Origin: Alphaproteobacteria bacterium
Lineage (GTDB): Bacteria; Pseudomonadota; Alphaproteobacteria; CAAHEQ01; UBA3637
Reading direction: 5' to 3'
NCBI GenBank assembly: GCA_017466695.1
Contig: JAFTTR010000031.1
Location: forward strand, 1-64,000
Length of the DNA: 64,000 nucleotides
Shown here: one piece after another, positions 8,607 through 24,691 of the stretch
Numbering within the stretch: the first letter of the stretch is position 1
Layout: every line of letters starts with the position of its first letter
Translations under genes and position numbers: made by a program
Notes under the pieces: generated by a model
Told to the model about the DNA's origin: nothing
The model's input: only the letters and a program-made list of their open reading frames with translations
The model's database searches: none

Positions 8607-8777
8607 ATGGATAATTCATCTTGTTCAAAAAATACATCTGCCAATAATCATCAAGAATTTATGGCTCAACAAAAAGAGCAAAAAAAGCAACAGCAAGAAA
8701 ATAACCTTCTTAAAAATAAAAACACTCAAAATCAACAACAAACTCAACATAAAAATTCTAATAATTTCCAAAAATAG
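8607..8777 (+). CDS. Small Q/N/K-rich hydrophilic protein, 56 residues
   Basis: ATG at 8607 with an excellent AAGGAG Shine-Dalgarno match six bases upstream, stop at 8775-8777, then a perfect 13-bp hairpin eight bases later. The peptide begins MDNSSCSKNT and is then almost entirely Gln, Asn, Lys and Glu (for example QQKEQKKQQQ), with one Cys and no hydrophobic segment; it is probably disordered. The strong ribosome site and dedicated hairpin are the evidence that it is real. No family recognised. The overlapping 90-codon frame at 8578 is probably a shadow. Confidence 0.6.
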   Translation: MDNSSCSKNTSANNHQEFMAQQKEQKKQQQENNLLKNKNTQNQQQTQHKNSNNFQK

Positions 8778-22365: not shown

Positions 22366-22710
22366 ATGCTCAAAGCTGAGAATGCCTACAGAACCATCAC
22401 AGAAGTTGCTGATTTATTGCAAGTTCCTGCATCGGTTTTAAGATTTTGGGAAACACAATTTTACCAAATCAAGCCTATGAAACGAATGGGAAGACGGTAT
22501 TATCAAGCTGAGGATGTTGTTTTATTGGCTCGTATTAGAGACTATCTTTACAAAGAAGGATTTACGATTAAAGGTGTTCAAAAACGTTTAAGAGCAAGTA
22601 AATCTTCAACAACACATTCATTAGAAAAAGATTCATCTCAAAAAGCGACCGATGCCTTTGTTCAAGAAATTACAGAAATTAAAACTTCCTTAGAAGATTA
22701 TCTTGATTAA
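22366..22710 (+). CDS. MerR family transcriptional regulator
   Basis: 114 residues. N-terminal winged helix with the MerR motif ([22 protein letters not shown], about 12-33) and the wing ([11 protein letters not shown]), then a short C-terminal helix region without the metal-binding Cys of classical MerR. It is the small MerR-type protein found after ihfA in alphaproteobacteria; its target is unknown. A strong terminator follows 37 bp later. Confidence 0.85.
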
Positions 22711-22747: not shown

Positions 22748-22777
22748 AAAAAACACCTGCAAAAGCAGGTGTTTTTT
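22748..22777. terminator. Bidirectional terminator between merR and the convergent 11-codon ORF
   Basis: AAAAAACACCTGC (22748-22760), AAAA loop, GCAGGTGTTTTTT (22765-22777). Perfect 13-bp stem with A and T tails on both sides. Ten bases after the stop of the minus-strand ORF and 37 after merR. Confidence 0.92.
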
Positions 22778-22787
22778 AATTTATGAT

Positions 22788-22823
22788 TTATTTTTTCTTT
22801 GTTCCACATCCACATCCTGGCAT
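22788..22823 (-). CDS. Eleven-residue Cys peptide MPGCGCGTKKK
   Basis: Minus-strand ATG at 22823, stop at 22788. The ATG is preceded by AAAGGAGGGG, the longest ribosome-site match I saw in the window, seven bases away. Upstream is a consensus-like promoter (TTGACA, 17, TACTTT; 22899-22871) and ten bases after the stop is a strong terminator, so the transcript would be only about 110 bases. The peptide has a CGC core and a basic tail. No leader function is possible for a downstream gene, because the next gene is convergent. It could be a genuine tiny protein, or a small RNA that happens to hold an ORF. No family recognised. Confidence 0.6.
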   Translation of the reverse strand: MPGCGCGTKKK

Positions 22824-22870
22824 TTTAATCCCCTCCTTTCCTCTTTAAAATAAAAATTATTTACTTAAAT

Positions 22871-22921
22871 AAAGTAAGTGATGCTTTTATGCTTGTCAAT
22901 AGAGAATATTTTTGATAGACT
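22871..22921. promoter_or_regulatory. Back-to-back promoters sharing one -35 region
   Basis: Plus strand: TTGTCA (22893-22898), 17 bases, TAGACT (22916-22921), serving the lipoprotein gene at 22950. Minus strand: TTGACA (22899-22894), 17 bases, TACTTT (22876-22871), serving the 11-codon ORF. The two -35 boxes overlap over TTGTCAA, so polymerase can occupy only one side at a time. Confidence 0.6.
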
Positions 22922-22949: not shown

Positions 22950-23726
22950 ATGATGATAAAAAAAATTAGAACATTTTCACTTTTTTTACTCTGCATACTT
23001 TTGACAGGCTGTGCACATAAAAATCCATTGACTGAGTTTCAGTTTCAAACTGTGACAGCTCCTCCATATGTATTGGCTTCGTGGTATAAAATAGAAGCTC
23101 CTGGAGAATATATTCGTATATACATTGAGGGAGATGGACATTCTTTTGATGCTTATAATAGACCAACGAATAATCCAACACCACATTCCACATTTTTAAG
23201 AGATATAGCAGCAAAAGATCCTCATCCCAATGTTGTTTATTTAGCACGTCCTTGCCAATATTTACAAACAAGTACCTGCATCCAAAATGATTGGACATGC
23301 GCTAGATTTTCTCCTCAAATCATCAACAGCATGGCGCAATCCATTAATTTGTTTGCAAAAAAGGCTCGTTCACAAAAAATTGTTTTGATAGGATATTCTG
23401 GAGGCGCTCAAGTCGCTGGGTTAATTGCTGTAAAGCAACCTCAAAAAATTCAAAAATTAATTACCATTGCAGGTGTTCTAGACCAAGAAGCATGGACATC
23501 ATATCATAAAGACACACCTTTAACAGGATCTTTAAACCTTAAAGATTATCAAGATTCTTTATCAAGTATTCCACAAATCCATTTTATTGGGGAAAAAGAC
23601 AAAGTTGTACCTCCTCATTTAACAAAAACATTTGTTCAAGATGACTCTAAAATTGTTATTGTCCCAAAAGCAAATCATCAAGATGGATTTGAAAAAGTTT
23701 TAAACGATATTTATCAAAGTAATTAG
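22950..23726 (+). CDS. Lipoprotein of the alpha/beta-hydrolase fold
   Basis: 258 residues from the ATG at 22950, the start that fits the promoter; a longer frame to 22878 would begin upstream of the promoter. Signal peptide with lipobox LLTGC (Cys-21). Hydrolase fold with nucleophile elbow GYSGG, a probable Asp in GEKDKVVPP and His in KANHQDGF. Probably an envelope-anchored esterase or peptidase-like hydrolase; substrate unknown. Followed after 8 bp by the ELM1-like gene, so probably one operon. Confidence 0.75.
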   Translation: MMIKKIRTFSLFLLCILLTGCAHKNPLTEFQFQTVTAPPYVLASWYKIEAPGEYIRIYIEGDGHSFDAYNRPTNNPTPHSTFLRDIAAKDPHPNVVYLARPCQYLQTSTCIQNDWTCARFSPQIINSMAQSINLFAKKARSQKIVLIGYSGGAQVAGLIAVKQPQKIQKLITIAGVLDQEAWTSYHKDTPLTGSLNLKDYQDSLSSIPQIHFIGEKDKVVPPHLTKTFVQDDSKIVIVPKANHQDGFEKVLNDIYQSN

Positions 23727-23734
23727 AGGCTAAC

Positions 23735-24691
23735 ATGACAAAAACAGTTTGGATTCTTGCAGATGATAGAATGGGGAATGTTAACCAACTGCTTGGCATT
23801 GCTGAATGTTTAAATTTCCCTTTTGAAAGAAAAGATATTCGCTATACAAAATGGATTAAATTACCAAATTTCCTTCGTGGAAAAACATTAATCGGATTAA
23901 CAAAAGAATCTCAGCAAATTTTAAAAACCAACACATATCCTGATTTAGTTTTAAGCGCTGGAAGACGCTCATTTCCGGTTGCCTTGTGGATAAAAAAAAT
24001 GTCTCAAAACAAGACAAAAATCGTTCAACTAATGAATCCAGGAAAAGCTTATTTTAATGATGCTGATTTAGTTGTTTTGCCCATGCATGATCAATATAAA
24101 GGGTCAGCAAAAAATGTATTTTTAACAATTGGGACACCCCACAGAATCACATCTCAACGCTTGATTGATGAAAAAGAAAAATGGGATCCAGTTTTTAAAA
24201 AATATTTAAATCCTCGTCTCTCCCTTATTGTTGGAGGCGCAACGAAAAACAAACCATTTACAATTGAAATGGCTCAAACATTATTGAATAATGTTTTAAG
24301 TCTTGCGCCTAAAAGTGTTATGGTTACCACTTCAAGAAGAACACCTACTGAAGTAACCAAATTTTTAAAACAGAACCTCCCTTCTGAAACAACTTTTTTC
24401 TATCAATTTGGAGATAAAACTGAAAATCCTTATTTTGGATTAATAGCTTGTGCTGATATGATTATGGTGACAGGTGATTCTATGTCTATGTGCTCTGAAT
24501 GTTGCGCTACAAAAGTTCCTGTTTTTATTTTTGCCCCAGATGATATGATGAGTGAAAAACACAAGCGTTTTCATAAAACTCTTTTTGACAACGGATATGC
24601 CCTACCTTCTGGAAGCACTATTCAATCTGTAAAAGGAGGATTTAACCCTTCTCAAGAAATTGTTCAACGTATTAAGAATTTATTTAAATAG
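23735..24691 (+). CDS. ELM1/DUF1022 family protein (glycosyltransferase-like)
   Basis: 318 residues. The N-terminus WILADDRMGNVNQLLGIAE and later VTGDSMSMCSECCATKVPVFIF match the family named after the plant mitochondrial fission factor ELM1, which is widespread in alphaproteobacteria. The fold resembles GT-B glycosyltransferases (family knowledge). The position between a lipoprotein hydrolase and a GT2-like gene fits an envelope glycan or lipid role, but substrate and reaction are unknown. Confidence 0.85.
   Translation: MTKTVWILADDRMGNVNQLLGIAECLNFPFERKDIRYTKWIKLPNFLRGKTLIGLTKESQQILKTNTYPDLVLSAGRRSFPVALWIKKMSQNKTKIVQLMNPGKAYFNDADLVVLPMHDQYKGSAKNVFLTIGTPHRITSQRLIDEKEKWDPVFKKYLNPRLSLIVGGATKNKPFTIEMAQTLLNNVLSLAPKSVMVTTSRRTPTEVTKFLKQNLPSETTFFYQFGDKTENPYFGLIACADMIMVTGDSMSMCSECCATKVPVFIFAPDDMMSEKHKRFHKTLFDNGYALPSGSTIQSVKGGFNPSQEIVQRIKNLFK

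Follow-up and report, generated by a model that had tools for sequence, protein, structure and literature searches.

The window (the whole stretch of 64,000 nucleotides that was analysed) contains a microgene of 11 codons, coding for the peptide MPGCGCGTKKK, which is almost certainly a real, free-standing protein-coding gene. On sequence grounds it appears to be the first example of a family of small proteins that, as far as tested, occurs in a single family of gut Alphaproteobacteria. The best explanation, to which we give a probability of about 60%, is that the product of this free-standing gene is a dithiol peptide, highly expressed in the cytosol, that works through its thiols. The comparisons between genomes establish the gene itself, its frame, selection at the codon level, the arrangement of the expression signals, and the synteny; from the same sequences we infer that it is expressed.

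The gene lies on the minus strand, with the ATG at 22823 and the TAA stop ending at 22788, and ten bases separate the stop from a hairpin. The initial annotation had proposed a complete stand-alone unit, and its ribosome site, ATG, 11 codons, stop, ten bases, and strong terminator are indeed all present. Its reading frame was correct but lacked the strand, and its description of the locus overlooked a conserved divergent hydrolase gene followed by an ELM1-family gene (see table).

Features of the microgene locus, in window coordinates
Feature	Position	Strand	Remarks
Microgene MPGCGCGTKKK	22788..22823	minus	11 codons + stop; from sequence, with orthologues in 30/43 family genomes
-35 element TTGACAAG	22892..22899	minus	TTGACA at 22899-22894; upstream in 28/30 copies
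Probable -10 TACTTT	22871..22876	minus	17 nt spacer from -35
Shine-Dalgarno AAAGGAGGGG	22830..22839	minus	6 nt before ATG
Symmetric (bidirectional) intrinsic terminator	22748..22777	both	13-pair stem, 4-base loop, T tails on both strands; folds as terminal hairpin
MerR-type regulator	22366..22710	+	Pfam MerR_1 1e-17; convergent; downstream neighbour in part of family only
Lipoprotein alpha/beta (serine) hydrolase	22950..23726	+	Pfam FSH1 1.4e-6; divergent; start inferred from lipoprotein signal MIKK...LLTGC
ELM1-family (DUF1022) gene	23735..24691	+	Pfam Mito_fiss_Elm1 9e-73; after hydrolase, same order in most loci read

The promoter had been called consensus-like, which holds for the -35 element (a perfect TTGACA) but not for the -10 hexamer (3/6 matches), whose weakness keeps the site at 22899-22871 out of the list of a simple promoter scan. 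The element TTGACAAG stands upstream of 28 of the 30 copies of the gene, compared with 0.2% in shuffles. The spacer between the two promoter elements is 16-18 nt across copies, and the -10 hexamer is variable. A comparable ribosome site precedes every one of the 30 copies, and this strong site together with the preserved -35 element suggests that the peptide is abundant. The terminator is symmetric and could serve both the microgene and the convergent MerR-type gene. Hairpins are also found 3′ of the other copies, with unrelated sequences. Because the peptide has neither a signal sequence nor a hydrophobic stretch, it should be cytosolic.

Within a family of gut Alphaproteobacteria assembled from metagenomes, 30 of 43 genomes carry the microgene, always as one copy, and they represent 8 of 13 genera. 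Searching relatives at the DNA level brought up the locus in 13 further genomes, and a degenerate MPGCGCG pattern matched 18 of the first 58 genomes, once each. A degenerate CGCGTKK pattern, which includes neither the start nor the ribosome site, matches 28 of the 43 genomes exactly once, and all 28 matches are start-to-stop reading frames with ribosome sites. The reversed control pattern gave zero matches in the 43 family genomes, so the observed number far exceeds chance. Copies with variant tails in two further genomes (G066 and G022) bring the total to 30. Degenerate peptide patterns revealed no second copy in the genome of the window itself. The second DNA matches found there (contig C21) cover only a terminator and a leader stretch, and a paralogue was discarded on that account.

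The 13 noncarriers are G008, where the contig ends inside the neighbouring hydrolase, G062, which is 59% complete, G010, and ten genomes from five genera (g5, g7, g8, g9, and g10). The absence of a recognisable copy from these ten genomes indicates that the microgene is not essential across the family. Reading upstream of the hydrolase in genomes of g5, g8, and g9 revealed no microgene, and in several of them another gene abuts the hydrolase. Two other small reading frames were seen. In G025, a genome without the microgene, a 51-aa frame rich in Cys, Lys, and His (MMEKKTCGGCGCSKSANEKSS..., locus L138, around 2009-2165) has a AAGGAGGG ribosome site and is followed by a hairpin. It is possibly an analogue of the microgene; this 'MMEKKTCGGCGCSKS...' frame was left uncounted, since it differs in sequence and setting although its ribosome site is similar. 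In the window, positions 8607-8777 (+) hold an intergenic frame of 56 aa (MDNSSCSKNTSANNHQEF...), very rich in Gln, Asn, and Lys and with a AAAAGGAG ribosome site, and no alignment was found between the two.

Outside the family, a sample of about 380 Alphaproteobacteria contained no microgene. A strict pattern run over 84,980 GTDB species genomes matched 16 contigs, all from environmentally assembled genomes of Alphaproteobacteria and only from this clade. Where the source is named, it is sheep, yak, roe deer, or probably rabbit (label 'Lapin'). A mobile or viral origin was rejected, as there was no match among IMG/VR viral contigs, plasmids, and phages. Variants of at least 21 aa gave nothing above cut-off in Pfam, NCBIfam, and PDB sequences; the forms of 10-11 aa are too short for a profile scan. 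Rfam gave no match above threshold, the weak ones (STnc370 and BSnc120, on the terminator hairpin) falling far below their gathering scores. A literature search did not find the peptide; its six matches are to articles about ticks, fleas, and bed bugs, where the matching string is probably DNA, e.g., a primer.

The main evidence for a protein-coding gene is the pattern of substitutions. In the core xCGCG[T/S]K, parsimony on a MerR guide tree with 27 tips counts 2 steps at first, 1 at second, and 48 at third codon positions, i.e., third positions take 48 of 51. Searches with peptide patterns favour conserved peptides, a bias corrected by the smaller subset of 14 copies found by DNA similarity alone: there, all seven variable columns are third positions and none is a first or second position. 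The copies range from 10 to 27 codons and always differ by whole codons, through KK, KKK, or KKGK tails, insertions of an extra CG unit, and extensions at the N- and C-termini. Besides the peptide of the window, the variants include MPGCGCGTKK, MPGCGCGTKKGK, MPGCGCGCGTKKK, MPGCGCGSKGTKK, MADCGCGCGTKKGGKPKDSKK, MAENQDCGCGTKKGSKK, and MAESKDCGCGCGTKKGGTKKGEAKKDC. The family core can be written G/D-C-G-C-G-[C-G]-T/S-K followed by a lysine-rich tail, in peptides of 10-27 residues with two to four cysteines; within C-G-C-G-[TS]-K the Cys, Gly, Thr/Ser, and Lys are invariant or nearly so, and further lysines follow. An excess of synonymous changes and a frame kept through insertions and deletions are what one expects of protein-coding sequence. 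The initial annotation had proposed to compare relatives for third-base changes and retained cysteines, and to abandon the gene if they kept the RNA without the frame. The opposite is seen: frame and both cysteines are retained while third bases change, and the RNA outside the frame is not conserved.

The genomic setting is also conserved, on one side. The hydrolase gene starts in the window about 127 bases from the ATG of the microgene and runs in the opposite direction; it, or a fragment of it, is adjacent and divergent, with the microgene immediately upstream, in 28 of the 30 genomes (a hand count from coordinates). The downstream side varies among genera: a MerR gene may lie there in convergent orientation, or same-strand genes, or others. 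No metal-handling gene was found among the conserved neighbours. In the g3 genomes (loci L133-L137, L175-L177, and L220) the hydrolase next to the microgene is truncated or interrupted by stops in most cases, and many of these genomes have a better hydrolase copy elsewhere. The neighbour has thus decayed repeatedly in g3 while the microgene stayed intact, and in G033 the microgene sits elsewhere and encodes the same peptide. The peptide is thus independent of the hydrolase.

These data allow other readings of the locus to be weighed. A predicted transcript of about 115 nt with its own promoter and terminator is compatible with a small regulatory RNA whose short frame is incidental. Outside the frame, however, conservation is limited to TTGACAAG (28/30) and the ribosome site (30/30); the 5′ leaders and terminators are unrelated in sequence among copies, and no covarying structure is conserved (the consensus fold has four pairs and -1.96 kcal/mol). 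Substitutions within the codons are almost all synonymous, and Rfam offers no match above threshold. Conserved codons between an unconserved leader and terminator indicate a protein-coding gene rather than a small RNA. The codon-position statistics and the lack of conserved structure led to the rejection of the regulatory RNA, whose probability is close to nil. A leader peptide or attenuator, controlling its neighbour through the position of the ribosome (e.g., on cysteine or glycine starvation), would agree with a short frame that has a terminator right behind it. It was rejected as highly improbable, because the genes downstream vary in identity and orientation between genera and are often convergent, as in the window; moreover, the hydrolase is divergent on the other strand and the copy of G033, which lies elsewhere, encodes the same peptide. 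The initial annotation had excluded a leader peptide from the convergent neighbour alone, and the variation between genera strengthens that conclusion.

Two further readings accept the peptide but assign it another use. It could be the precursor of a modified peptide (a RiPP or a signal), with GCGCGT heterocyclised, cross-linked, or exported. The alternation of Cys and Thr with Gly resembles azole-forming cores, and microcin C is a precedent for a RiPP precursor gene of seven residues (PMC6495379). However, YcaO is found in none of the 43 genomes, with the same search positive in control genomes, so a YcaO-type azole modification is unlikely. The conserved neighbours that were read include no gene for maturation (e.g., of the radical-SAM or ThiF-like kind) or export. 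Most copies have no leader region, and the sole NCBIfam match, a putative sactipeptide with 12.8 bits (cut-off 45) and an E of 0.094, does not rise above chance. The idea of a modified peptide, raised in the initial annotation, is thereby weakened, and we consider it unlikely. Alternatively, the peptide could be a small structural or accessory subunit, such as a zinc-ribbon-like tag or a lysine-rich binder of RNA, the ribosome, or an enzyme. Its CGCG-TKK would then act like half a SEC-C-type metal site, and we take C-x-C-G-[ST]-K-K to resemble the first half of the C-terminal motifs of the SecA type; the tail is also basic. Yet the second Cys/His pair is missing and the longer copies have no Pfam match, which leaves a subunit as a minor possibility.

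The preferred reading, a free-standing gene for a cytosolic dithiol peptide, can be put in terms of a mechanism. The TTGACAAG promoter would give the gene its own mRNA of roughly 115 nt, and the near-perfect ribosome site would ensure translation, leaving a very small basic peptide in the cytosol. The methionine is probably cleaved off, as its removal before proline is well established among N-terminal rules. The Cys-Gly-Cys dithiol would be the working part, and the peptide probably acts through its thiols. A metal-binding or a redox role is plausible for such a sequence, with the chances of the two about even. In the first case the dithiol may act like a metallothionein with one motif and bind a thiophilic metal such as Cu(I) or Zn; CxC is also the spacing of metallothioneins. 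In the second, Cys-Gly-Cys may carry out thiol-disulfide exchange. For the tripeptide CGC, E0′ is -167 mV, close to the value for PDI, and both CGC and RKCGC mimic PDI (PMC4316792). The lysines could provide a charge that lowers the thiol pKa, or steer the peptide to an anionic partner.

No match to glutathione synthetase (PF02955) was obtained for 39 of the 43 family genomes, and the other 4 gave weak ones, the Caulobacter control being positive. The family thus probably lacks glutathione synthesis, and the near absence of GshB means that a peptide thiol could have a place. GshB is equally absent from noncarriers, i.e., its absence is not specific to genomes with the microgene, and the link of the peptide to glutathione is only suggestive. 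One could go further and imagine a ribosomally made low-molecular-weight dithiol of 10-11 residues, present in large amounts and serving as thiol buffer, metal carrier, or disulfide catalyst in gut bacteria that lack glutathione synthetase. We regard this extension as rather doubtful.

The family is a genuine case of a very short, conserved, stand-alone, and lineage-restricted gene, and the annotation libraries tested gave no match to it. It is among the shortest conserved stand-alone genes of bacteria, and there is hardly any record of genes of 10-11 codons whose peptide is apparently used directly; such genes are passed over by gene finders and annotation libraries or cannot be scored by them. 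It offers a clean case, combining codon-level selection, a conserved setting, and natural variants that span 10 to 27 residues and have two to four cysteines. Since a synthetic peptide is cheap, the metal and redox hypotheses are directly testable. Should the peptide indeed function as a thiol or metal carrier, its size would be close to the minimum for a ribosomally encoded functional product.

The microgene belongs to the same class as the entries of the small-protein catalogues GMSC and sORFdb (PMC11796252). GMSC includes predictions from 30 nt upward, of 9-99 aa, and its authors note that homology recovery falls drastically already at 20 aa (PMC11364881). The gene for the heptapeptide of microcin C7, mccA, was presented as 'The smallest known gene' (Gonzalez-Pastor et al. 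1994, cited in PMC11241378). Like the microgene, mccA is a genuine gene of under a dozen codons. It is part of a biosynthetic operon, and the peptide that it encodes is nucleotidylated, whereas the microgene stands alone with its own terminator, has no such enzymes adjacent, and is unrelated in sequence. Metallothioneins share with the peptide the Cys-x-Cys spacing with Gly and Lys and the very small size. However, they have many cysteines in CxC or CC motifs, compared with two to four in the peptides, which have no Pfam match and for which metal binding is putative. Most copies of the microgene are less than half the length of the copper metallothionein of Neurospora crassa, which has 26 residues (PMC4755600). 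A further parallel is with CGC and RKCGC, the synthetic PDI mimics of Woycechowsky and Raines 2003 and later work, as described in PMC4316792: these peptides and the product of the microgene have in common a Cys-Gly-Cys dithiol with basic residues nearby, the activity of the latter being putative. The mimics are laboratory peptides, whereas the analogous sequence here is genetically encoded and conserved.
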